Positions 3,594 to 41,993 of a stretch of DNA of 41,993 bases are shown here, in pieces. The notes beneath the pieces were generated by a model, which made no database searches, was not told the origin of the DNA, and was given only the letters and a program-made list of their open reading frames with translations. Within the stretch, counting starts at the first letter, position 1, and the number at the start of each line of letters is the position of its first letter. This stretch comes from a virus, in IMG/VR virus record IMGVR_UViG_3300050026_000207, positions 1 to 41,993 of that record, one strand, 5' to 3'. Made by a program: the position numbers and the translations under genes.

Positions 3594-3883
3594 CTTTCCC
3601 CCTTCAAGCACGACTTTAGATTTAGTAGGACTGCTTTGGCAATTTTCTTATATGTAGTTCCTCTTGCGTCTTTGGCTTCCCAAGATTCTTGACCTACACA
3701 AAGAGTAAGAGCTTCAATCTTACCTTTATCAAATTCCCTATCAAGGAGTTTGGTGATTTCGGTAATAGCATCATTCCATCCAGCACCATACCGTTTGTCA
3801 GCAACTGTCATTCCTAAGATTGATAGATTTTCATACACTTTTTTCTTCTCCGGCAACTCAACAAGTGAGCTTAGTTTTGTCAT
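3590..3883 (-). CDS. Small hypothetical protein
   Basis: 97 residues, helical (ITKLLDREFDKGKIEALTLC). GGGAGG lies before the ATG, inside the end of a 17-residue upstream ORF with which it overlaps (ATGA). No domain recognised. Confidence 0.6.
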   Translation of the reverse strand: MTKLSSLVELPEKKKVYENLSILGMTVADKRYGAGWNDAITEITKLLDREFDKGKIEALTLCVGQESWEAKDARGTTYKKIAKAVLLNLKSCLKGER

Positions 3884-3933
3884 TTAATCCTCCCAAAAAT
3901 TATTTTCCCGATGTAATCTTCTGGGTACTGCAT
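3880..3933 (-). CDS. 17-residue leader-like micro-ORF
   Basis: MQYPEDYIGKIIFGRIK, started by cassette copy A and overlapping the next gene as ATGA. Its beginning resembles the micro-ORF at 6431-6481 (MKYPDDY). It may be a shortened relic or a translation-coupling leader. Confidence 0.4.
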   Translation of the reverse strand: MQYPEDYIGKIIFGRIK

Positions 3934-3959
3934 ATCCCTCCTTTAACAATGCCGTTAAA
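3931..3959 (-). repeat. RBS cassette, copy A
   Basis: Minus strand reads a variant of ACGGCATTGTTAAAGGAGGG followed by ATATG. It supplies the ribosome-binding site of the 17-residue ORF. The stop-side part is diverged (GTTTAACGGC instead of ATTAAACGGC). Confidence 0.85.
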
Positions 3960-4188
3960 CAATCAAATGCTTTTTACTCTTAAAGCAATTCTTACACCAA
4001 GTCCCTAAATAATCATCTTCACCACGAAACCATGACGTTTCTTCAAAACATTTATAATAGAATCCGTGGTCAACAAATTCTTCACCCTTACGCTTACCTT
4101 TTTTAGAAATAAACCTTTGCTTGCCTGTTATTCCGCATGATTTACATACTCCATGCGATTGTGTGTGTACGTTTATTTTTATCTGCAT
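3955..4188 (-). CDS. Small zinc-ribbon-like protein
   Basis: 77 residues with CKSC near the N-terminus (about residue 15) and CKNC near the C-terminus (about 66), spaced like a treble-clef or HNH-remnant zinc ribbon. The sequence between is basic (SKKGKRKGEEFVDHGFYYKC). The start follows cassette copy B. It could be a DNA- or RNA-binding regulator; no catalytic His/Asn set is clear. Confidence 0.6.
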   Translation of the reverse strand: MQIKINVHTQSHGVCKSCGITGKQRFISKKGKRKGEEFVDHGFYYKCFEETSWFRGEDDYLGTWCKNCFKSKKHLIV

Positions 4189-4215
4189 ATCCCTCCTTTA
4201 ACAATGCCGTTTAAT
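4186..4215 (-). repeat. RBS cassette, copy B
   Basis: Full copy: on the minus strand TTAAACGGC, ATTGTTAAAGGAGGG and ATATG follow each other. It overlaps the stop codon of the 11-mer-repeat gene and starts the zinc-ribbon gene. Confidence 0.9.
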
Positions 4216-4945
4216 TCCATAACTGATTTCGATATTTCTTTTGGGAAAATATTTTCCAGAACGCTGGGTCTTTGATTTTGTTGTACTCAGCCAACGCTGG
4301 GTCTTTGATTTTGTTGTACTCAGCCAACGCTGGGTCTTTGATTTTGTTGTACTCAGCCAACGCTTGGTCTTTGATTTTGTTGTACTCAGCCCACGCTTGG
4401 TCTTTGATTTTGTTGTACTCAGCCAACGCTGGGTCTTTGATTTTGTTGTACTCAGCCCACGCTTGGTCTTTGATTTTGTTGTACTCAGCCAACGCTTGGT
4501 CTTTGATTTTGTTGTACTCAGCCCACGCTGGGTCTTTGATTTTGTTGTACTCAGCCCACGCTTGGTCTTTGATTTTGTTGTACTCAGCCCACGCTGGGTC
4601 TTTGATTTTGTTGTACTTTTCTTTCCCTTTATCATTCAATAAGTCCAAAGACATGCCAATCCTACTCATTCGCCCTTCTTTAATGGCTAAGACTATCTCT
4701 GGGGGGAAATTGTCGGGAGTGGATAGGTTAGTATTTTCTTTCTCTTTTCCCCACTGTAATTTCTTACCTAATTCTTGATTACCGCCATTGAAATAAGTAC
4801 GAATTGCCCCGTGACCTTTAATATCTTCTTGGAAATTATTCCCTAAGAATTTTATTAAAGATTTTCCTTCCTTGCTTTCAAGGTCTTTATCGGTTAGGAA
4901 ATAATTCTTATTTTCGGATTCAATCCATGAAATAAATTCGCACAT
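4211..4945 (-). CDS. Protein with eleven 11-residue helical repeats
   Basis: 244 residues. A unique N-terminal part of about 120 residues (with WIESENKNYFLTDKDLESK) precedes about eleven units of AEYNKIKDPAW, where P alternates with Q and W with L. It ends with KIFSQKKYRNQLWN. Eleven-residue units favour a long amphipathic helix or right-handed coil, as in lipid- or surface-binding 11-mer repeat proteins; this is an inference. All three minus frames stay open across the array because 33 is a multiple of three. This frame is chosen because it has the longest non-repeat flank and a cassette-type start. Similar xAPAWAEYxK repeats occur in other phage-related proteins as I recall, without known function. 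Confidence 0.7.
   Translation of the reverse strand: MCEFISWIESENKNYFLTDKDLESKEGKSLIKFLGNNFQEDIKGHGAIRTYFNGGNQELGKKLQWGKEKENTNLSTPDNFPPEIVLAIKEGRMSRIGMSLDLLNDKGKEKYNKIKDPAWAEYNKIKDQAWAEYNKIKDPAWAEYNKIKDQALAEYNKIKDQAWAEYNKIKDPALAEYNKIKDQAWAEYNKIKDQALAEYNKIKDPALAEYNKIKDPALAEYNKIKDPAFWKIFSQKKYRNQLWN
4256..4618 (-). repeat. 33-bp tandem repeats, about 11 copies
   Basis: Period 33 bp with almost perfect identity. Differences fall at two bases per unit: CCA/CAA (Pro/Gln) and TGG/TTG (Trp/Leu), both transversions of the same C:G to A:T type. The last unit is altered (PAF). Confidence 0.95.
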
Positions 4946-4975
4946 CTTATCCCTCCTTTAACAATGCCGTTTAAT
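4946..4975 (-). repeat. RBS cassette, copy C
   Basis: Same core as the others, but with three extra bases between AGGAGGGAT and the ATG of the 11-mer-repeat gene. Confidence 0.88.
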
Positions 4976-5161
4976 CATTTCATCTTCTTCGTTCTTAAAT
5001 TCCATATCCTTAAATATCGGGCAAAACTTTAAGTCATGTACCCACTTCTTATCCTTACGGCAATAGCTTGATGTTCCACTCATAAAACCATAATTGTATC
5101 TTTTATTACCACCATATTGGCACATCTTGGTTAGCGATTTAGGACAAGGGTACTCTTTCAT
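4958..5161 (-). CDS. Small Cys-rich protein
   Basis: 67 residues with five Cys (C6, C14, C34, C47, C67) and a charged C-terminus that ends in RHC inside cassette copy C. Started by cassette copy D. The Cys pattern suggests metal binding but matches no family I know. Part of a run of Cys-rich small genes. Confidence 0.6.
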   Translation of the reverse strand: MKEYPCPKSLTKMCQYGGNKRYNYGFMSGTSSYCRKDKKWVHDLKFCPIFKDMEFKNEEDEMIKRHC

Positions 5162-5217
5162 ATCCCTCCTTTAACAATGCCGTTTAATCCATTTAAGTAT
5201 TCACCAAATGTCTTCAT
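5158..5217 (-). CDS. 19-residue micro-ORF ending in the cassette
   Basis: MKTFGEYLNGLNGIVKGGI, preceded by GAGGAGGAAT. Its last codons AAA GGA GGG are the Shine-Dalgarno of the next gene, and its stop overlaps that ATG (ATGA). This is the clearest case of the cassette being read as a coding end. Confidence 0.5.
   Translation of the reverse strand: MKTFGEYLNGLNGIVKGGI
5159..5188 (-). repeat. RBS cassette, copy D
   Basis: Full, unaltered copy that starts the 67-residue Cys-rich gene. It encodes LNGIVKGGI of the upstream micro-ORF. Confidence 0.9.
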
Positions 5218-5239
5218 ATTCCTCCTCATTAGCGGATGG

Positions 5240-5485
5240 CTAATCCGTTTTAACTCCCTTAATCATTTCTTTATAATCTTCCCATTGAATTACATAACGT
5301 CTATCACACTCTTTACATTTTAGAATCATTCCATTTATGCCTTTACAGCTACGCTCTAATAAAAAACATTTATGGAAGATTGCTCTATACCAAGGAATAG
5401 CAATTCTACGCCTCCATTCGTAACAGTGAACACAAGAGCATATTTTCTTACTATGACCACTTTCACAAATCTTTGTATCGTTCAT
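5240..5485 (-). CDS. Cys-rich small protein, probable zinc binder
   Basis: 81 residues with several pairs: C8, CSCVHC (about 17-22), C39, C47, then CKEC (about 57-60). The RRRIAIPWYRAIFHKCF segment is basic. It looks like a two-site zinc-ribbon fold. Started by cassette copy E. No catalytic motif seen. Confidence 0.6.
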   Translation of the reverse strand: MNDTKICESGHSKKICSCVHCYEWRRRIAIPWYRAIFHKCFLLERSCKGINGMILKCKECDRRYVIQWEDYKEMIKGVKTD

Positions 5486-5511
5486 ATCCCTCCTTTAACA
5501 ATTCCGTTAAA
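5483..5511 (-). repeat. RBS cassette, copy E
   Basis: Variant with GGAATTG in place of GGCATTG and one T fewer before the upstream stop. It starts the 81-residue gene. Confidence 0.88.
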
Positions 5512-5800
5512 TCACCTCTCCAATCCTAACTTCTCCCTTTTCCCTCATTTTCCCCGTCAATTCATACTCAATATATATTCTCCAATTATCACCATAAGCA
5601 AAGCGATACCATAATATTGTAAGAAAACTTATATCTATTTCTTTCCATTCACCCGTACAGTGTGGGTAACGCTTTATATCAAACTCAGTCAAATCTGGAA
5701 CGCTATCTTCTGTAATTATCTTTGCTTCGGGGAAATTCTTGACAGTTGCTAAATGAGTGAAATGTTGGTTAATTTCAAAATATCTGAATTTATATTTCAT
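5507..5800 (-). CDS. Small hypothetical protein
   Basis: 97 residues, mixed alpha/beta look, acidic centre (EDSVPDLTEFDIKRYPHC) and aromatic strands (FLTILWYRFAYGDNWRIYIEY). Started by cassette copy F and ends inside copy E. No family recognised. Confidence 0.6.
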   Translation of the reverse strand: MKYKFRYFEINQHFTHLATVKNFPEAKIITEDSVPDLTEFDIKRYPHCTGEWKEIDISFLTILWYRFAYGDNWRIYIEYELTGKMREKGEVRIGEVI

Positions 5801-5827
5801 ATCCCTCCTTTAACAATGCCGTTTAAT
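5798..5827 (-). repeat. RBS cassette, copy F
   Basis: Full copy. It overlaps the stop of the DnaJ-finger gene and starts the 97-residue gene. Confidence 0.9.
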
Positions 5828-6434
5828 GACTTAATGGTAATAATATCCCTTGACCGTTTTCAAAAGTAAAATATATAAATCCGAATTTACTAAATGACGT
5901 GTCATGCTCGGCGTACAATCTAACGTTCTTTAATTCTGAGAATATCCTGCATAAATATTTTGATTGAACTTTTAACTTATCAGTTAAAATTGTTTCTTGT
6001 TGTTTTAAAACCTTTCCCACGCCAGCACATTCTCCGCATTGAAAATTATCAGCGTCAATTTTGCTTCTATTCCCCGTACCATCACAATCAGGACAATCCC
6101 TGTCTTGACCACATTCGCAACATTCAACGATGCCTTTCCCATTACATTCACCGCACTTTGTGAGCTTACCCAATCCATGACAAATTGAACACTCTATATA
6201 CTCATCCCGATAATTTTCAAATCTAAAATCAACGGGAGTATCTTTAACGGCTTTAGTAAAAAATTCATCAATCTTTTGGGTGGCTTCGGGATATTTATTG
6301 TCCCTGTATTTTAAGGACAAATCTACGCTTTGAAGTTTGATAGCCATTCGACCATCAGATACATAGACATCTTGGCCTACTGTAAAAGGTAAGTTTAATT
6401 TTTCATATTCTCCACAAAATTTAAGGATGTTCAT
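5823..6434 (-). CDS. DnaJ-type zinc-finger protein
   Basis: 203 residues. The middle (about 80-145) holds repeated Cys-rich modules: CSICHGLGK, CGECNGKG, CCECG, CPDCDGTG and CGECAGVG. These are the CxxCxGxG modules of the DnaJ/HSP40 zinc domain. No J-domain (HPD) or DnaJ C-terminal domain is present, so this is not a DnaJ. Such stand-alone finger proteins are frequent in phages and may bind protein or nucleic acid. The flanks are beta-rich. Started by cassette copy G. Confidence 0.75.
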   Translation of the reverse strand: MNILKFCGEYEKLNLPFTVGQDVYVSDGRMAIKLQSVDLSLKYRDNKYPEATQKIDEFFTKAVKDTPVDFRFENYRDEYIECSICHGLGKLTKCGECNGKGIVECCECGQDRDCPDCDGTGNRSKIDADNFQCGECAGVGKVLKQQETILTDKLKVQSKYLCRIFSELKNVRLYAEHDTSFSKFGFIYFTFENGQGILLPLSH

Positions 6435-6481
6435 ATCCCTCCTTTAACAATGCCGGTTAAGTAATCATCCGGATATTTCAC
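6431..6481 (-). CDS. 16-residue micro-ORF ending in the cassette
   Basis: GTG-started MKYPDDYLTGIVKGGI with GGAGGAGGG ahead. It overlaps the DnaJ-finger gene as ATGA. It shares its end with the 5158-5217 ORF and its beginning with the 3880-3933 ORF, which supports a common origin. Confidence 0.45.
   Translation of the reverse strand: MKYPDDYLTGIVKGGI
6432..6460 (-). repeat. RBS cassette, copy G (most upstream)
   Basis: Variant with CCGGC in place of ACGGC. It is the first copy met by the minus-strand transcript. Confidence 0.88.
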
Positions 6482-6648: not shown

Positions 6649-6767
6649 CTATCTTCTCCGTATTGATAATCCGCTTGATCAATTTCATCTTCCTTGCGTT
6701 CTTCTTCGAGTTCGTCGTCGTAGTTGTCAACTAAGTGGTTTCCTGACCTCGGGAGATTTGGTATCAT
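6645..6767 (-). CDS. 40-residue acidic protein
   Basis: Starts MIPNLPRSGNHLVDNYDDEL and continues with a strongly acidic helix (EEERKEDEIDQADYQYGEDR). A perfect GGAGG lies nine bases before the ATG, inside the end of the nuclease gene, which it overlaps by about 40 bases. Small acidic phage proteins often act as inhibitors or DNA mimics. That is only a possibility here. Confidence 0.55.
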   Translation of the reverse strand: MIPNLPRSGNHLVDNYDDELEEERKEDEIDQADYQYGEDR

Positions 6768-7188
6768 TGTGATTATCCTCCAATGCTTTGAACAAGTGCA
6801 TTATGTACTGACTGGCTTCGTCCCTGTTCGTACAAAAGACGGTATGTACGTTGTGTCTAACACGGATTGTAAAGAGCTGATAGACAATACTAAGTCCAGT
6901 TCTTCGCGAGTTACTATACCCGCTAAGTACCCGTCTAAGGCTGGCTTCAATAACGATGATAAGAGTGATACCCAATTCTTCCGCAAGTTGCATCTCGCGT
7001 CGGAAGCGGTCATATCCTTGACTAAGGGTTCCATAAGCATCTCCTAAACTTTTTCTTTCCACGACCACCTCCGACAGGCTTCCGTCGGAAAACTTCGCGC
7101 GATAGTCCCCGCACGGCAAGCACTCTCGGATGGTGGGTACTGTAAATTCTAATGGCAACTGTTCACGACTGTCCACGATAATCTGCAA
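6727..7188 (-). CDS. ERCC4/XPF-type nuclease
   Basis: 153 residues, a single ERCC4 nuclease domain. The N-terminus has VDSREQ (about 5-10); GDY and then VVVERKSLGDAYGTL (about 42-56) give the GDxnERKxxxD catalytic core, followed by RF and an acidic helix. The family cuts branched or flap DNA. The start is TTG with GGGAGG nine bases upstream, inside the end of the gene before. Next to the recombination genes it probably resolves branched intermediates or matures concatemers. Confidence 0.85.
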   Translation of the reverse strand: MQIIVDSREQLPLEFTVPTIRECLPCGDYRAKFSDGSLSEVVVERKSLGDAYGTLSQGYDRFRREMQLAEELGITLIIVIEASLRRVLSGYSNSRRTGLSIVYQLFTIRVRHNVHTVFCTNRDEASQYIMHLFKALEDNHNDTKSPEVRKPLS

Positions 7189-7619: not shown

Positions 7620-8273
7620 TTAGGTCTCCTTTTTATGTTGGTAGTTATAGATTTTGAGGGCGGGCAGGAACACTTCGTTGAAACAGTCAAAGATTTCGTC
7701 ATGTCCCATTTCGTACACGTTATAAGCCACCTTGTCCTTAGCGATGGACACGATAATCGCTCGGTCAATACAGTTTTGTTTTACTTCGTTATACAGGAAG
7801 GTGTAGGCGGCCACCTGGACTTTGTAGCTGTCATAGACGTCCGGCTTATCTTTTTCTCCTGCTTTTCCCGACTTCCAGTCAATACAAAGGTCTGGTAGAA
7901 CAAGGTTTTTATCGGTCTTGCCGATGGCATCAATGGTTCCGTTGTACCCGTGTTTCTCGCTTGTTAAGGCCATTTCTGACCACTCAATAAAGATGTCGGG
8001 TCTTTCCTTGCGGAACTTAATGAAGCTATGAAGCGCACAAGTAACCTCTTCCGGGTACTCCGTTTCCACCGTGGCCTGGCCGGTAAGGATGTAGTTCTCC
8101 AGGCTTTTGTGTATATCGGTTCCGATTGTCCGACCCTTACTGGACTCCCTGTTGATAAACTCAAGAGTATTTTTTTTAAACCAAAATTCTAAGGGTATAT
8201 TACGCAACACCCCTAAAATCGTCGTTACCGACGGGTAATCATTCTCATAAGCCCTATGCTTTCTCTGTGCCAT
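7620..8273 (-). CDS. PD-(D/E)XK exonuclease (RecB/Cas4-like)
   Basis: 217 residues. GYNGTIDAIG (about 109-118), then CIDWKSGK (about 132-139) and YKVQVAAYTFLY (about 151-162) are motifs II, III and the QxxxY helix of the RecB-type PD-(D/E)XK nucleases. An upstream H (IGTDIHKSLENY) is the usual motif I helix. The ATG follows AGGAGGAAACAG. Paired with the RecT-like protein it forms a two-part recombination system: end resection plus strand annealing. Confidence 0.85.
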   Translation of the reverse strand: MAQRKHRAYENDYPSVTTILGVLRNIPLEFWFKKNTLEFINRESSKGRTIGTDIHKSLENYILTGQATVETEYPEEVTCALHSFIKFRKERPDIFIEWSEMALTSEKHGYNGTIDAIGKTDKNLVLPDLCIDWKSGKAGEKDKPDVYDSYKVQVAAYTFLYNEVKQNCIDRAIIVSIAKDKVAYNVYEMGHDEIFDCFNEVFLPALKIYNYQHKKET

Positions 8274-8439
8274 CTGTTTCCTCCTTAAATTCTAATCTCT
8301 TAAATGTATTATCATCTGTCAATACACAAACAGCATATTGGCAAGCAACAAAGATATTGCCCTTAAATTCACACATGCCAACTACCGCTCCGTAGCCATC
8401 GGGGACATTTGTTTTAAATTCAAACTTCTTTCGTTCCAT
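8254..8439 (-). CDS. Small beta-rich protein
   Basis: 61 residues: GYGAVVGMCEFKGNIFVACQ, then YAVCVLTDDNTFKRLEF. The strand pattern resembles one beta-propeller blade. It overlaps both neighbours (20 bases each), so it is embedded in the recombination operon. Small proteins of this kind are common near RecT genes; function unknown. Confidence 0.6.
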   Translation of the reverse strand: MERKKFEFKTNVPDGYGAVVGMCEFKGNIFVACQYAVCVLTDDNTFKRLEFKEETDGTEKA

Positions 8440-8995
8440 TGGCTACCTCCGTATCTACGTCGATTGCGACGGTAGTTCTTGGAGCAGTTTCTTCTGTTGC
8501 GGGGTCAAGGTCTTGTAATTCTTCCACAGTGTAATATCCTCCAATAACCTCTGGACAGAAGAATCTACAAGCGTTAGACAAGGCCCGAGCGTATAGCATA
8601 TTTCTGGGGTAGGACTTCCAGTTATCCTTGTTAACGAGGCCAGCCTTCGCCGCATCTTTGAAGGTAAAGGTCGTAGTTCCCACAATCCCGTCGGAGTTAG
8701 TAATGTCAATGGTACATTCTGCCTCATCCAACTTTTTGATAACATAGTCATATTTCTTGCTCCTTTTAATAAGCCCTGCCATACATTTAGCAGTAAGGCC
8801 AAGTTTGCCGCCTACTACGTAAATGCTCCCCATAGATTCAAATGGTAATAATCCCAATTCTTTTCCTGCTAAAATCTTAACCACAGCTTGCGCTTGTGAT
8901 TTCACGTCGGGAAACATCCCCGACTTAGCGAACACTTCTCCTATCGCCATCGGTTGTTTTAATTCATCCACTACTGATAATTCTTGATCGCTCAT
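8420..8995 (-). CDS. RecT-like single-strand annealing protein
   Basis: 191 residues. Features shared with RecT-like phage proteins: an N-terminal GKELGLLPFESMGSIYVVGG, a central strand with TFTFKDAAKAGL, and NWKSYPRNMLYARALSNACR followed by CPEVIGGYYTVEEL. The last part is the signature I recognise best. The Asp/Thr-rich tail is probably disordered. It would anneal ssDNA ends made by the exonuclease downstream. GGGGGTG precedes the ATG. Confidence 0.75.
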   Translation of the reverse strand: MSDQELSVVDELKQPMAIGEVFAKSGMFPDVKSQAQAVVKILAGKELGLLPFESMGSIYVVGGKLGLTAKCMAGLIKRSKKYDYVIKKLDEAECTIDITNSDGIVGTTTFTFKDAAKAGLVNKDNWKSYPRNMLYARALSNACRFFCPEVIGGYYTVEELQDLDPATEETAPRTTVAIDVDTEVANGTKEV

Positions 8996-13412: not shown

Positions 13413-14240
13413 TTATACTAAGGCCAGCTCTGTTGGCGCTTCCACAGCCACGGCCGCTTGATCCGCTTCCAGCGCCTTTAATATCTTTTGAACCGCGCTA
13501 ATAACCTTCAAAACCCTTACTTCCGGCTTATGCTCATTATACGCTTTGATATACAAGCTGGACTCTTGAAACTCAACACCTAGAACCGAACAAACCAAAA
13601 GACTTGTCAATTCCGCTTCAACTTCTCGCGCCGGATGACTTGCGACATCCTCCGCGCTCTCATGTAATATCGCATGACCTAATTCGTGAAATAAGGTTTT
13701 GCATTTATCGCTATTATTACTCATTGAGGATATCACGATCTCCCGCGCTCCCGCTGTGATACCGCGCTTAAAATATCCTCTTGCGCTCCCGGTGATCGCG
13801 CTTGTTATATTAATCCCGAGCGCGCTTTGTAATTTAACAGATATATCCGCATAACTAACATTGATTCTTTCTGTACTATTATTCTCATATTCAAGAGGCT
13901 TTCCTTCAGTCTGTGATATATCAAAAACCTTGCGACCGAAAAACCCAGCGCATAATTGATCTTTATCACCTGTTACTTTATCTGTGGCAGTAATCATCTT
14001 GGGTACTAATATTTCAATATTAGCGTGTTCACCCCTCTTAACATGCCTACCCGCTTTTTGCCAACGATCAAAACCCATTGCTATTGACCCTCCCTGTATC
14101 ATAATCATAATCGTATTTCTTATACTATACCGATAAATCCCAGGTATACGATAAAACCCATGTAAAAAGTCCATCTCTCCGGCTGTGATCTTACTTCCCA
14201 ACAAATCCTTAATTTTGTTTTCCATTTCTAGGCCTGTCAT
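13413..14240 (-). CDS. ardC: ArdC-like antirestriction protein with zinc-metallopeptidase domain
   Basis: 275 residues. The N-terminal part carries the ArdC/DUF1738 ssDNA-binding pattern: YRYSIRNTIMIMIQGGSIAM, then GFDRWQKAGRHVKRGEHANI and ILVPK. The C-terminal part carries an IrrE/ImmA-like site, TLFHELGHAILHESAED, with HExxH and a downstream Glu (EVEAELTSLL). ArdC proteins protect incoming DNA from restriction. The ATG at 14240 follows GGAGGG; the longer reading to 14315 has no site. It is the most upstream gene of the minus strand, as expected for a gene expressed first on entry. Confidence 0.82.
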   Translation of the reverse strand: MTGLEMENKIKDLLGSKITAGEMDFLHGFYRIPGIYRYSIRNTIMIMIQGGSIAMGFDRWQKAGRHVKRGEHANIEILVPKMITATDKVTGDKDQLCAGFFGRKVFDISQTEGKPLEYENNSTERINVSYADISVKLQSALGINITSAITGSARGYFKRGITAGAREIVISSMSNNSDKCKTLFHELGHAILHESAEDVASHPAREVEAELTSLLVCSVLGVEFQESSLYIKAYNEHKPEVRVLKVISAVQKILKALEADQAAVAVEAPTELALV

Positions 14241-14510
14241 TGGCGTACCCTCCGTTTGTGGCCCGGATAATTCCGAGGCACAACTACAGCTTAACACAAA
14301 CAATGTTATTGTCAAGCATGGACGCTGTTAAAATTCCCTTCCGTCGGACACGTCGCTGACTCGTCGCTAAAACAACCCTTACATCATGTTGAAACTATTT
14401 TTCTCCCTCGCTGTCACTTTGCCACCACTGCAAAAAAGCAAAAAGCAGCACTACCAAAACACCGTCGAGACCTCGTCGAGCCATTAGCATTCTATTGTTG
14501 AGAGTGCTAA

Positions 14511-17310: not shown

Positions 17311-17565
17311 ATGGGCGATAACGGAAAACATTTACAACTCGACCCCCTTAACCCACCAAAAGATTTTGTTGTACTTTCCATAATACAATATAAGGATGCT
17401 AAAGGCAACATCATTCAGGATGTGCAAAGTCACTTAATGCAGGATTTGCGTAATGAAGCGTATGTTATGTGTATGATAGATTCTGCGAAGGAGCAGTTGG
17501 GGAAGTGGTATAAAGAGCAGAAGGCGATTAACAGATTTGGCGATAAGATTATAAAAAAATTATGA
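17311..17565 (+). CDS. Small protein coupled to the radical SAM gene
   Basis: 84 residues: MGDNGKHLQLDPLNPPKDFV, a strand-turn (VLSIIQYKDAKGNIIQDVQS), then a helix with basic end (KEQLGKWYKEQKAINRFGDK). GGGAGAAGAAT precedes the ATG. Its stop overlaps the radical SAM start (ATGA). It could be a partner or substrate of that enzyme, or an ordinary small virion-operon protein. No family recognised. Confidence 0.6.
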   Translation: MGDNGKHLQLDPLNPPKDFVVLSIIQYKDAKGNIIQDVQSHLMQDLRNEAYVMCMIDSAKEQLGKWYKEQKAINRFGDKIIKKL

Positions 17566-18596
17566 TGGCCATAAAGACTTTATCGTTGTGCGCTCTTTGT
17601 TATAAGAAGATTCCGGCTGAAATAACTTTTCAGAACGGCATGGTTGTGATGAATAAGGTGTGCGATGTTCACGGCCTTTCTACAGCCATAGTTGAGAAGG
17701 ATATCCAGCATTTTGCAAGGTTCTACGAATTAGGGACGCTTGATAAAAACAATTCAATAATTATCCATGCGCATAATCAATGCAATATGAAATGTGAGTG
17801 GTGTTATTACCCTATGGGCGTTGAGCCAATGCACGACGCGGAGTATTACAATAATGTATTAAAGCAATACAAGGGCAAGTTTAATTTGTTATTGTCTGGT
17901 GGGGAGCCGACAGAGCGTCCCGACTACTTCGCTTTTGTAAAACGATTAGTAGGATTAGGGTGGTCGGTGGGTTCTATTACCAATATGATTAACCTCGCCG
18001 ATGACAAGTTCTTTGACGAAACAATGTCTTCTGATTTTATTCAAGGGAAGACATACAAATTTGCTCTTAGCTTTCAGCATCCTAAAAACTATTCGGAGGA
18101 AATTAAGCAGAAGAAAGTTAGGGCGTTGGTGAATATCGAGAAGATGAAACTTAAAGCCTTCTGCGTGATGTTCTCAATTCAATCATTGGACGAATTGGAT
18201 TATATAAGAAAATTTTACGACCAGACGAAGCAGTGTTACACTATGTTGAGGATTCGCACAATGTTTAAGAATTGGGCGAATAAGGACGACAAGACAAATT
18301 TATTTAGTTCGGATTTATACAAGGCGTTCTTTGAGAAGTTTTCTGATTTGATGCCGATAGAATCTCGGGACATTGAATCGTCAAATATTTATTGTCAGTA
18401 TCTGAAAATGGATAACGGGATGAATGTATCTTTAAGTTCTGCGCCGACAGTTGAGAATTTGGATTATCATTTATGTACTCGACCTGTATTCATGTTATGT
18501 CGAGATGGTCGTGCTTATCCCGTTCCTATATGTCAGATTATCAATGAAGGAATATCTTTAGGATGGAAAGACGGATTTGAATTGAAGGGGGCTTAA
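17562..18596 (+). CDS. Radical SAM enzyme
   Basis: 344 residues. CNMKCEWC (C74, C78, C81) is the CxxxCxxC [4Fe-4S]/SAM motif, followed by LSGGEP (about 111-116), the SAM-binding GGE motif. The N-terminus has LCALCYKKIPAEI and VCDVHG (C10, C13, C34, H37), the extra metal site typical of the MJ0619/tetraether-synthase-like branch of radical SAM proteins. C-terminal Cys (C278, C305, C313, C324) could hold an auxiliary cluster. The substrate is unknown; families with this layout modify peptides, cofactors or lipids. It is unusual between TerL and the connector. Confidence 0.85.
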   Translation: MMAIKTLSLCALCYKKIPAEITFQNGMVVMNKVCDVHGLSTAIVEKDIQHFARFYELGTLDKNNSIIIHAHNQCNMKCEWCYYPMGVEPMHDAEYYNNVLKQYKGKFNLLLSGGEPTERPDYFAFVKRLVGLGWSVGSITNMINLADDKFFDETMSSDFIQGKTYKFALSFQHPKNYSEEIKQKKVRALVNIEKMKLKAFCVMFSIQSLDELDYIRKFYDQTKQCYTMLRIRTMFKNWANKDDKTNLFSSDLYKAFFEKFSDLMPIESRDIESSNIYCQYLKMDNGMNVSLSSAPTVENLDYHLCTRPVFMLCRDGRAYPVPICQIINEGISLGWKDGFELKGA

Positions 18597-19149: not shown

Positions 19150-20790
19150 ATGGTAAACCAAGAGTTTGTAAAGAAGGCTATTGGAAATTTTAAATGGCAC
19201 AAGGGAAAACGTGGCACTTTTGAAAGTTATTGGCAGGACTGCGCGAACTTTGCTTTACCCCGTAAGGCGTGGGTTTCTACAATAAAAAAAGAAGCGCAGG
19301 AATTAAATCTTAATTTTCTTTATGATTCAAGAGCGACTCTCGCTGTAATGAAATCATCCGCAGGTTTTCACTCCAACCTAACCAACCCCTCTACCCGCTG
19401 GTGGCAATCTGGAACGATTGAAGATAAGTATATGCAGTCCGGCCGCGCTCAGAAATATTTTAGGGAGTGCGACGACATTCAATATGATGTAATGAACGCT
19501 TCTAATTTTAATCGTAGCATGATGGAGTTCTATCCTAACATTTTAGTTTTCGGTGTTTCAACTTTATTAACAGAAGCAAGCGCAAAAAAGAAAGTTCGTT
19601 ATACATCAATACCTGTTGAGTCGGCAGTTCTTGTTGAGGATGATGAGGGATATGTTAATGAGACTTACAGACCTTTTCGCTTTACTGCTGTTCAGTGTAT
19701 GGAGAGATGGGGGAATAGATTGCCTGACTCTATTAAGACCGCATTGAAGGACGGGGATTATTATAAAGAATTTGATTGCCTCCATTATGTCGCCCCTCGT
19801 TATATGCGTGATGTTTCAAAGATGGATAATTCCAATATGGAATATTTTTCTGTTTGGATTGGCATTGATGATGAGTTTTTATTTGAAGAGAGCGGGTTTG
19901 TTGAAGACCCATATTCCACTGCTCGTTGGTGGAAAGATACGATGGATGGAAGTCCGTATGCGTATAGTCCGGTAATGAATGTTTTAGGCTCAATTAAGTT
20001 AGCCAATGCCCAGAAGCGCACCCTCATTCGTGTCTCTATGAAACAAGCCGACCCTGCCTATGCCTCTCCATATAAATTTTGGATTGCCCCGCTAAATCTT
20101 AATCCCTCCGCTATGAACTATTATGATGCGAGCAAATTTAAACTTGAGCAGTTCGCACAGATGGAAAATAAGGGCAACATTCCTATTACTGCTGACGTTA
20201 TGAAATTAGAACAAGACCTTATAGACGCGGGTCTCTTTGTCAATCTCTTTGAAAACCTCTTAAATGTCACGAAGCAGATGACTATACCAGAAGTTCAACA
20301 AAGACTTGCAGAGGCCCTCAATCTTATTTCTCCTTATATTGGCCATATTCTTGATGAAGGAATTACTCCTAATCTTTTTAGGACAAGGTCAGTTCTTGAT
20401 AGACAGTTGATGTTTCCTCCCGCTCCGAAAGAACTTAAAGATTTAGACATGAGCATTGTCTATTTGTCTCCACTTGCAAAAGCCCAAAGGCAATCTGAAA
20501 TGAACGGCCTTTCCGCTTGGACGAGTTATATAACAGGACTCATCGAAGGTGGCTTCTCCGACGCTAAGTATATTCTCAACGTGGATAAGATTGGTCGTAA
20601 TTCTGCTGACCTATTTGGCGTTAATCCTGATAACGTCGCCGAGCAATCGGATATGGATAAGCGTAGGCAGGCTGACCAGCAGTTACAACAGCAAATGCTT
20701 CAGTTAAAACAAGCTGAAGAAAAGTCAAAGATTGCTAAGAATATTTCTGGCGCGCACCATGACGTACAGGAAGCAAAGACGTTTAAATAA
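19150..20790 (+). CDS. T7-type head-tail connector (portal)
   Basis: 546 residues, close to the size of T7 gp8. Features: an N-terminal helical part (MVNQEFVKKAIGNFKWHKG), a LPRKAW/STRWW region near residues 35-90, conserved wing-like strands, and a C-terminal helical/Gln-rich tail (QQLQQQMLQLKQAEEKSKIA). I recognise it as a Head-tail_con family connector. It forms the dodecameric ring through which DNA enters and leaves and anchors the tail tubular proteins. Confidence 0.85.
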   Translation: MVNQEFVKKAIGNFKWHKGKRGTFESYWQDCANFALPRKAWVSTIKKEAQELNLNFLYDSRATLAVMKSSAGFHSNLTNPSTRWWQSGTIEDKYMQSGRAQKYFRECDDIQYDVMNASNFNRSMMEFYPNILVFGVSTLLTEASAKKKVRYTSIPVESAVLVEDDEGYVNETYRPFRFTAVQCMERWGNRLPDSIKTALKDGDYYKEFDCLHYVAPRYMRDVSKMDNSNMEYFSVWIGIDDEFLFEESGFVEDPYSTARWWKDTMDGSPYAYSPVMNVLGSIKLANAQKRTLIRVSMKQADPAYASPYKFWIAPLNLNPSAMNYYDASKFKLEQFAQMENKGNIPITADVMKLEQDLIDAGLFVNLFENLLNVTKQMTIPEVQQRLAEALNLISPYIGHILDEGITPNLFRTRSVLDRQLMFPPAPKELKDLDMSIVYLSPLAKAQRQSEMNGLSAWTSYITGLIEGGFSDAKYILNVDKIGRNSADLFGVNPDNVAEQSDMDKRRQADQQLQQQMLQLKQAEEKSKIAKNISGAHHDVQEAKTFK

Positions 20791-20945
20791 TGTTAGATAA
20801 AATAGAATATATTAAGAAGTTGCCGAAAGAGGCTGGAATTTTTTGGGCTATGGCCGCTTATCAAGACGATATTATTATGTGTTGTCAAAATGGTGTTTGG
20901 GCGATTGGAATGAATTTAGAGAATTTACGAAAGATTTACCCGTAA
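20790..20945 (+). CDS. 51-residue hypothetical protein
   Basis: MLDKIEYIKKLPKEAGIFWA, then MAAYQDDIIMCCQNGVWAIG. The ATG overlaps the connector stop (TAATG), and its own stop overlaps the next ATG the same way. Too short for most gene finders. No family recognised. Confidence 0.6.
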   Translation: MLDKIEYIKKLPKEAGIFWAMAAYQDDIIMCCQNGVWAIGMNLENLRKIYP

Positions 20946-21439
20946 TGTCATTTAAAAATAAAACACCGAATGAAATGCTGTTCGCTCAGGCTTCTCCTGA
21001 TAAGGTGATGCCTGTCGTACTTATATGGCGCGGAATTTGGAAGTGGATTTTTGATGAGCGTAGTTGTTCCTTAGATCATCGAAAAATCCTTGAGGAAGAA
21101 ATCTTAAAATGGAATGATATTATCATATTCCAAAAAAGACTTAGGCTGACCAAGTATGGCCCTACCGAAAGTGATTCTAACCCTACCGGACAGAAAGGGA
21201 ACGTAATAGATGAGTTGGATTATCAAATTAGAATGATGTGTAAGACCCTCGTTGATAACGAAGAAGGACTTTGGGATTACCATAAGGACACACTTCGTAT
21301 TCACAATATTGATTATAGAAAATCTATTCACTGTAAATTTTGGTTTCCCGAAATACCAACGGACTATGCAAAAGGACAGGCCAACCTTGAGGCCGCAAAA
21401 CGTGAAAACCCTGAAGACTATCTACCTAATCCAACATGA
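20945..21439 (+). CDS. Hypothetical virion-operon protein
   Basis: 164 residues starting MSFKNKTPNEMLFAQASPDK. Trp-rich middle (VLIWRGIWKWIFDERSC), helical and acidic rest. The longer TTG reading runs through the overlapping 51-residue gene and is rejected in favour of the ATG in the TAATG overlap. No family recognised; by position a head or connector accessory. Confidence 0.6.
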   Translation: MSFKNKTPNEMLFAQASPDKVMPVVLIWRGIWKWIFDERSCSLDHRKILEEEILKWNDIIIFQKRLRLTKYGPTESDSNPTGQKGNVIDELDYQIRMMCKTLVDNEEGLWDYHKDTLRIHNIDYRKSIHCKFWFPEIPTDYAKGQANLEAAKRENPEDYLPNPT

Positions 21440-40733: not shown

Positions 40734-41993
40734 TTTATTTCTGTATTCTATTTCTTGGGCAACCGTTCCCGTTGAACGATACCCTTCGGGAACCCCTGTG
40801 CAGGTCTGTGTTCCCTCAGATACTAATGGCAACTGCGGTGGCACTCTTCAAACTCCTCTTACCTTTGCAGATTCGTTAGTGAATTCAAGCGGCACAGTAA
40901 CGCTTGTCAATGACTCGGCCACCCCTTCAGCCTCGTATTATTACGGAACAAACTCAGGTGGCACATTAGGATATTTTGCTTTGCCAAGCAGCTCCTCTCT
41001 AATCGTCGGCACAACACCAATTACATCAGGCACTAATACCTATTTAGAGTATAACAATAATGGAGTATTAGGCGAAATTCCGAAGTCGACTTTCGTAACA
41101 GGCACGCCTTGGGCAGGTCTATACCTTCCTATCGGCGGTGGAACGCTCACAGGTAACTTGACATTATCCACTCATAACATTGTAACCGACACCACGACAG
41201 GTACTGATATAGGCACAGCGACGACTCAAAAGGTAGGGTTCTATGGAGTAACGCCAGTTGTTCAACAGACAGGAAACGTCTGTACTGCATTAAATGCCTT
41301 AGGTCTTACAACCTCTTGTTCAGAATCTGGCGGTGCCCAATGGACTACTTTGGGGAGCAATATTTATTACAATACTGGTAACGTCGGCATCGGGACGACG
41401 AGTCCGAGCCAGAAATTAGATGTTGCAGGAAATATAAATGTCAATACTAACGGCACGGCAGTTTTAATCTCTTCGTATAAGCCAACAAGCACTTCTGGCA
41501 ATAACATTTTCATAGGAGGAGGAGGTCAAAGTTCTATCTATGATGGCACTAATTCGTATACAGGTTCTTACAATACAGCAGTTGGAGTGAGTGCCTTACA
41601 ATCCAACACCACAGGCTACTACAACACCGCCAATGGACTTTATTCTCTCTTCTCCAACACCACAGGTTCCTACAACACCGCCAATGGATTTTATTCTCTC
41701 TTCTCCAACACCACAGGCTACTGCAACACCGCCAATGGAGTTTCTTCTCTCCAATCCAACACCACAGGCTACTACAACACCGCCAATGGACTTTATTCTC
41801 TCTTCTCCAACACCACAGGTTCCTACAACACCGCCAATGGAGTTTCTTCTCTCTTCTCCAACACCACAGGTTCCTACAACACCGCCAATGGAGCTTCTTC
41901 TCTCCAATCCAACACCACAGGCTACTACAACACCGCCAATGGACTTTATTCTCTCTTCTCCAACACCACAGGTTCCTACAACACCGCCAATGG
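40708..41993 (+). CDS. Repeat-containing tail fibre, N-terminal part (continues at position 1)
   Basis: Open from the ATG at 40708 to the end of the window without a stop. Signal-like start MRYLITCLSLFLYSISWA, then TVPVERYPSGTPVQVCVPSD. The shaft contains YLPIGGGTLTGNL, VGFYGVTPVVQQTGNV, NVGIGTTSPSQKLDVAGNI and an NIFIGGGG stretch. From 41602 eight 17-residue SNTTGxYNTANG units follow. The gene then re-enters the window at base 2 in frame and ends at 730. Repeat number may be underestimated by assembly. Confidence 0.82.
   Translation, partial: MRYLITCLSLFLYSISWATVPVERYPSGTPVQVCVPSDTNGNCGGTLQTPLTFADSLVNSSGTVTLVNDSATPSASYYYGTNSGGTLGYFALPSSSSLIVGTTPITSGTNTYLEYNNNGVLGEIPKSTFVTGTPWAGLYLPIGGGTLTGNLTLSTHNIVTDTTTGTDIGTATTQKVGFYGVTPVVQQTGNVCTALNALGLTTSCSESGGAQWTTLGSNIYYNTGNVGIGTTSPSQKLDVAGNINVNTNGTAVLISSYKPTSTSGNNIFIGGGGQSSIYDGTNSYTGSYNTAVGVSALQSNTTGYYNTANGLYSLFSNTTGSYNTANGFYSLFSNTTGYCNTANGVSSLQSNTTGYYNTANGLYSLFSNTTGSYNTANGVSSLFSNTTGSYNTANGASSLQSNTTGYYNTANGLYSLFSNTTGSYNTAN
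41602..41993 (+). repeat. 51-bp coding repeats of the fibre, right portion
   Basis: Seven full units and a partial one. Variation is concentrated at two positions after SNTTG (YY, SY, YC) and at the residues after NTANG (LY, FY, VS, AS) plus the last residue (F or Q). Confidence 0.95.
41877..41993. repeat. Terminal direct repeat (copy 2), contig overlap
   Basis: Identical to 7-123. It supports joining the two ends, although an extra repeat unit may be missing or duplicated at the join. Confidence 0.75.

Follow-up and report, generated by a model that had tools for sequence, protein, structure and literature searches.

What does a short sequence do that recurs, almost unchanged, ahead of a whole series of different genes? 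The question is raised by IMG/VR virus record IMGVR_UViG_3300050026_000207, analysed here over positions 1 to 41,993 (41,993 bp; hereafter the window), where small genes stand in an array on the minus strand. A preliminary description of this DNA had noted the same segment ahead of seven of them and proposed a module that allows genes to be exchanged at its copies. From the comparisons presented here, the segment, which we call the cassette, is probably a phage-borne gene-joining element, at which genes would be exchanged through annealing of short homologies.

Seven cassettes in the window

The 20-mer ACGGCATTGTTAAAGGAGGG lies on the minus strand in five exact copies, at 3936, 4191, 4951, 5164 and 5803, and in two copies with one mismatch, at 5488 and 6437, whereas shuffled sequences gave an expectation of 0. 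With up to three mismatches allowed, the window contains no other copy, and 100 dinucleotide shuffles gave none. All seven copies stand 5-8 bp (counted after the 15-bp core) 5′ of the ATG of an open reading frame (ORF). The ORFs behind them start at 6434, 5800, 5485, 5161, 4945, 4188 and 3933, so that each start named in the preliminary description has its copy, although the gene at 3933 is an ORF of 17 codons only. Of the six complete intervals, five have the stop codon of the preceding ORF inside the cassette; the exception is the gene at 5240-5485, which ends before it.

The core GGCATTGTTAAAGGA is preceded by TTAACC in cassette 1 (6432-6460), by TTAAAC in cassettes 2 (5798-5826), 4 (5159-5187), 5 (4943-4974) and 6 (4186-4214), and by TTTAAC in cassettes 3 (5483-5511) and 7 (3931-3959), all on the minus strand. 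Cassette 1 precedes the gene at 5823-6434, cassette 2 contains the stop of that gene together with the start of the gene at 5507-5800, and the core of cassette 3 carries one mismatch (GGAATTG). The shared start sequence that had been claimed for all copies holds for six of them, which continue with GGGATATG; the copy before 4945 (cassette 5) reads GGGATAAGATG instead. The identity said to extend well upstream of the Shine-Dalgarno sequence is real for about 15 bp (TTAAMCGGCATTGTT), while beyond this the copies are unrelated.

Occurrence of the cassette in other phages

A search of other phages had also been suggested, and it found the exact 20-mer or the core in 18 further IMG/VR phage contigs from about 15 different samples. 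Together with the window, these 19 contigs (12-48 kb, with podovirus-like genes) contain 78 cassettes, always on one strand per contig, and represent about 16 phage lineages, three pairs being the same phage. A reversed control pattern had no match in the same viral scan. Among 84,980 prokaryote species genomes there were 13 single matches, none of them arrayed before start codons, and all 13 were read as chance; the 50,697 cultured-phage records gave no convincing copy and one chance-level match (E = 6). The lineages are distant from each other in their virion genes: homologues of the window's capsid protein in other lineages are 33-70% identical or were not found, with the exception of G009, the closest relative of the window (99% over 154 aa), and the portal protein of G006 and G008 is about 21% identical to that of the window.

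Block ends and breakpoints at the cassettes

Homology blocks between lineages were defined at the nucleotide level (at least 75 bp, at least 80% identity), and the whole-region comparison yielded 14 blocks with 26 usable ends. Sixteen of these ends fall within cassettes in both phages, compared with about 1.1 expected from the length occupied by cassettes. The gene for the 203-aa protein of the window (5823-6434, minus) is 99.8% identical to positions 20470-21135 of G009 over exactly 666 bp, beginning 6 bp before one core and ending 25 bp past the start of the next, while the aligned parts of the two contigs average about 82% and their other array genes are unrelated. The 77-aa gene (3955-4188, minus) is 95.3% identical to positions 1428-1703 of G008 over 276 bp, from cassette to cassette, and this is the only nucleotide similarity found between both phages. 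At the exchanged junctions, identity spans about -6 to +14 to +25 around the core. In the pairs G000/G008, G009/G017, G002/G006, G014/G018 and G005/G013, the nucleotide similarity found is likewise confined, wholly or for the most part, to a segment with one or both of its ends at a cassette.

Near-identical phages display the gain and loss of genes exactly between cassettes that the preliminary description had anticipated for relatives. G006 and G008 align at 96.5% identity over 27.6 kb, yet nearly all their modules differ once the first cassette is reached, and the one module they share stands at a differing place. Between G001 and G007, which match at 100% over 22.8 kb, the difference is a unit of the array bounded by cassettes: ahead of the repeat-protein gene, one of the two phages has a 56-aa gene where the other has a different one of 149 aa. 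A unit ending in a cassette distinguishes G005 from G011 (99.9-100% identical over 14 kb), although a 405-bp repeat could also have mediated that change. Within single genomes, G004 contains two 100% identical 298-bp copies of a module and G009 two 93% identical ones, in both cases non-adjacent and cut at cassettes. Relatives with the same gene order and diverged intergenic sequences, named beforehand as the contrary outcome, were not seen.

The two sides of the core were then considered separately, using sequence families seen in two lineages or in two copies, with same-phage pairs set aside. The partner across the core differs in 10 of 10 left families and in 9 of 9 right families; for example, the CGTNATG half-site accompanies the same 55-aa gene in both phages that have it, while the upstream neighbour differs. 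In the alignments, the left half goes with the gene upstream and the right half with the one downstream, and since the half-sites travel with their genes, the crossovers are confined to the core and a few adjoining bases. Block ends in cassettes and partner switching within and between phages strongly support the proposed exchange module: as far as aligned contigs can show it, genes have been swapped, duplicated, acquired and lost, also between distantly related phages, and the breakpoints lie in the cassette.

Nine of the 18 contigs terminate within 500 bp of a cassette (0.74 expected; none of 20,000 simulations), which fits, indirectly, arrays that vary within the sampled populations. The same observation, on contigs that are assembled and mostly metagenomic, might be taken to mean that a repeat of 20-30 bp misled the assemblers into joining unrelated genes. 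We consider such an artefact highly improbable. An array of five cassettes within 16.7 kb is 100% identical in G002 and G010, which come from two samples; a start codon follows every junction, and most upstream stops are inside the element. Furthermore, repeats of 30 bp are shorter than the usual k-mers of current assemblers. Single junctions could be mis-assembled, but the overall pattern would be hard to explain in this way, because identical arrays recur across samples and the shared cassette-bounded modules exist as diverged versions in different samples.

Anatomy of the element

The anatomy was derived from 65 copies in 16 lineages, obtained with a search that tolerated one core mismatch, so that the core columns are conserved partly by construction. 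The element consists of TTAAMC, the core and a right half leading to the ATG (consensus TTAAMCGGCATTGTTAAAGGAGGGATATG). This right half is GGGATATG or a close variant in 44 of the 65 copies (plus two GTG), A(T/C)GGAGA...ATG in 17 and CGTNATG in 2. The stop of the upstream ORF mostly lies in the left half, 1-2 bases ahead of the core, and an ATG follows 4-12 bp past the core in 78 of 78 copies. Two further comparisons suffer less from this construction. When core positions 2, 5 and 9 were freed in a scan of 2.9 million viral contigs, 0 new contigs appeared. In eight module comparisons diverged by 0-13%, three of which belong to one three-way set, the flanking cores showed 0 differences, compared with 15.5 expected.

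A core that stays without substitutions while neighbouring genes diverge by up to 13% likely has some function, and this could be a purely translational or regulatory one, that is, a strong ribosome-binding site or the site of an early-gene factor, with the swaps being illegitimate recombination events that survive at gene boundaries. The cassette always adjoins an ATG and contains AAAGGA(GGG), and the start-associated sequences (SAS) of cluster K mycobacteriophages have been read in that way (PMC3203893). As the only function, however, this seems unlikely to us. The part GGCATTGTT is not Shine-Dalgarno sequence and yet is as invariant as the rest of the core, and the core is also unchanged in the 17 of 65 copies in which a second GGAG lies closer to the start; a pure Shine-Dalgarno reading is insufficient because it leaves both unexplained. 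In addition, the breakpoints lie inside a shared stretch of 15-21 bp with reassorted half-sites, rather than loosely at gene ends. A translational role alongside exchange is possible.

Other roles and origins were considered as well. The RNA of four cassette variants folded no better than shuffles (z from +1.6 to -1.1) and formed no stable hairpin, and neither a conserved inverted repeat nor promoter-like or terminator-like matches were found inside cassettes; the array region has no significant enrichment in promoter-like matches. With no supporting signal, a promoter, terminator or RNA-structure role was rejected. A designed three-frame stop was also rejected, since stops in all frames occur in only 38 of 65 copies. 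The idea that a DNA methyltransferase gene gave rise to the cassette through its 5′ end was dropped after a degenerate search for the predicted ancestor came back empty; read in frame, the cassette gives YLNGIVKGGI, with a slight likeness to YINKIICGD. One rare diverged copy, a decayed cassette with a 2-bp core deletion (CGGC-TTGTTAAAGGAGGG), is found near position 6526 of L080 (G017).

How the exchange may proceed

In a gene-joining element of this kind, each copy would end the upstream ORF, mostly with the stop inside, and would supply the ribosome-binding site and start of the downstream ORF. Between unrelated phages, the copies agree without a difference over 20-31 bp, because of which the swap of a segment would leave reading frames unbroken. 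A cassette-bounded segment, coming from a co-infecting phage or from the same genome, could thus recombine in, recombine out or replace another one. The exchange step itself may fall to single-strand annealing proteins that the phages encode themselves (in the window, RecT) and that would pair the short homologies. The core would be kept identical either by exchange, as drifted cassettes drop out and only matching ones remain in the pool, or by an extra translational role such as that proposed for SAS, possibly by both.

Annealing proteins are encoded in 13 of the 19 contigs, the window included (RecT in 6, Erf in 5, Sak4-type AAA_24 in 2). Their gene and the array are about 1 to 6 kb apart, except in G012, which has them at opposite contig ends. 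Red beta has been reported to need a minimal pairing length of 23-27 bp and RecA one of 31-34 bp (PMC3945230). Two GGG-type cassettes share about 29-31 bp of identity, enough for annealing of the Red beta type.

Several points weigh against this account. Its weakest point is that GGG-type and NNGGAG-type cassettes share about 20-21 bp, below the 23-27 bp of Red beta, which makes mixed-type pairing marginal. An annealing protein was not found in G001/G007, G014, G015, G018 or the fragment G002; four lineages are thus without a detected one, some of the contigs being fragments. Annealing proteins are common in phages, which makes their presence non-specific. Selection for junctions at gene ends alone would place breakpoints near start codons. 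Finally, all contigs are uncultivated virus records, mostly metagenome assemblies.

Instead of annealing, a dedicated recombinase might recognise the core, giving an integron-like cassette system of phages. The short invariant core with variable flanks, the single orientation, the cassettes of one ORF and the crossover inside the core would all agree with site-specific recombination. Tyrosine (PF00589) and serine (PF00239) recombinases, however, are encoded in 0 of the 19 contigs, while the PF00589 search was positive in 14 of 14 control genomes. Clustering of the contig genes revealed no non-virion gene common to most contigs, and the cassette has neither a conserved inverted repeat nor a structured hairpin. 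We therefore give this alternative little credence, although a host enzyme or one of an unknown family might still act at the core.

Cargo genes and surroundings of the array

The array genes are small, with a median of 73 aa. Among the 46 products scanned, the matches listed include three unrelated DNA methyltransferases (C5, MT-A70 and Dam), a YopX protein, an ASCH/DUF3850 protein and several zinc-ribbon proteins, and they include no virion family, recombinase or transposase. Homing endonucleases as cargo were rejected, as no such family was among the matches listed for these 46 module proteins. Methyltransferases would aid a phage against restriction, and this cargo fits a traded accessory pool.

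In the window, all on the minus strand, the first module gene (5823-6434, 203 aa) has a weak match to a DnaJ-type zinc cluster. A 47% identical homologue of its product, L086, sits without cassettes in a phage stretch with its own ribosome-binding site, and this gene family is therefore not tied to the element. The genes at 5507-5800 (97 aa) and 5240-5485 (81 aa) have no family; the one at 4958-5161 (67 aa) ends within the core of the next cassette. The fifth gene (4211-4945, 244 aa) encodes a protein with about 11 copies of a 33-bp tandem repeat at 4260-4617 (AEYNKIKDxAx) and is followed by the 77-aa gene. Tandem repeats are also present in array genes of G001/G007 (CS/DC repeats) and G011 (GLSGDVS repeats), and repeats lie near the arrays of G004, G006, G013 and G017; repeat genes seem to be common next to cassettes.

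Behind the last cassette follows the 17-codon ORF MQYPEDYIGKIIFGRIK (3880-3933, minus), which resembles a 21-codon truncated ORF behind a cassette in G005/G011. These short ORFs of the window and G005 (L056, 5746-6449), directly behind a cassette, start with MQYP(E/D)DYI and look like the beginnings of methyltransferase genes that were cut short; the one in G005 is followed by a second frame of methyltransferase-like type, which has an NPPY motif. This suggests gene debris within the arrays.

Upstream of the array, the minus strand of the window carries an early block with a primase, a RecT-type single-strand annealing protein (8420-8995), a phage exonuclease (phrog_298, 7620-8273) and, directly before the array, an ERCC4-type nuclease (6727-7188). 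The RecT-type gene, about 2 kb from the array, is the candidate recombination machinery, and the exonuclease is its probable partner; a search for further relatives of the window's recombination genes gave only G009. The plus strand encodes podovirus-type structural proteins (terminase, head-tail connector and major capsid protein, the last with about 40% identity to capsids of Pelagibacter phages). Between terminase and portal lies a gene that is unusual there (17562-18596, plus, 344 aa), with a weak match to Fe-S oxidoreductases (E 4e-4). On the minus strand, 13413-14315 encodes an anti-restriction-type protein (phrog_7245) about 70% identical to proteins of G013 and G014, two contigs that have little else in common with the window. 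The record is probably circular or permuted and cut within a repeat-protein gene, because an identical 51-bp repeat is shared by both ends (1-176 and 41514-41993).

A wider reading would make the cassette a maintained standard adaptor, which several unrelated lineages keep identical for access to a common pool of accessory genes such as anti-restriction methyltransferases, zinc-ribbon proteins and others. We regard this as possible rather than probable. If true, it would amount to an integron-like commons that has no dedicated integrase, and would explain SAS-type elements of other phages likewise.

Comparison with known systems

It has long been asked how mosaic phage genomes are joined, and short boundary sequences proposed decades ago were not found at most junctions (PMC3029335). 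In the contigs compared here, one short sequence marks many exchange breakpoints across unrelated phages, and its half-sites show the crossover places, which makes the boundary-sequence idea directly testable. A testable function is thereby also offered for start-associated sequences, and cassettes provide a ready means of delimiting accessory genes, for instance anti-restriction genes, in uncultivated phages.

T4-type phages are said to contain promoter early stem-loop elements (PeSLs), mobile regulatory cassettes with an early promoter and a terminator or stem-loop, which Arbiol in 2010 and Comeau in 2014 reportedly described. These elements (both works are cited in PMC4503421) resemble the cassette as a repeated short intergenic element between small accessory genes with proposed modular shuffling. 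The likeness that the preliminary description had drawn to them therefore holds in idea, as the shuffling of intervening genes between phages is found here too, but not in composition: the cassette has no promoter match, stem-loop or terminator and consists of a stop, a ribosome-binding site and a start. Moreover, exchange at the cassette is seen to link phages whose nucleotide sequences otherwise have little or nothing in common. A conserved motif also precedes most ORFs on one genome side of the haloarchaeal virus HGTV-1 and was proposed to drive shuffling (PMC3950731); unlike the cassette, it is TATA-box-like with an inverted repeat, i.e., transcriptional, and belongs to an archaeal virus.

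The SAS and the related ESAS of cluster K mycobacteriophages and Microbacterium phages of cluster EF are short asymmetric sequences of unusual conservation at the ribosome-binding site (passages of PMC3203893 and PMC7302621). According to these passages, they share with the cassette the position a few bp before mostly ATG starts, the single orientation, the placement among non-structural genes, the sometimes included upstream stop and the rarity in host genomes. Their sequence is different (consensus GGGATAGGAGCCC versus TTAAMCGGCATTGTTAAAGGAGGGATATG), and the cassette lacks an ESAS-like inverted repeat. The same passages describe SAS in related cluster members, suggest a translational role and do not report partner switching, whereas for the cassette the switching of partners across unrelated phages is the principal evidence.

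Integron gene cassettes are similar in forming reassorting arrays of single ORFs parted by a shared short element. In contrast to integrons, no integrase was found (IntI-type PF00589 in 0 of 19 contigs) and none of the four cassette variants has an attC-type fold, while the phage element itself gives the ribosome-binding site and start context. The conserved boundary, or linker, sequences proposed for lambdoid phages and discussed in PMC3029335 are alike in that a short identical sequence at module borders would enable homologous exchange. Here too, breakpoints lie inside a stretch identical in both partners and an annealing protein is mostly encoded; the difference is that one cassette sequence serves dozens of different genes in about 16 lineages. 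With the PeSL side taken from citing papers, we file the element with the boundary and regulatory cassettes.

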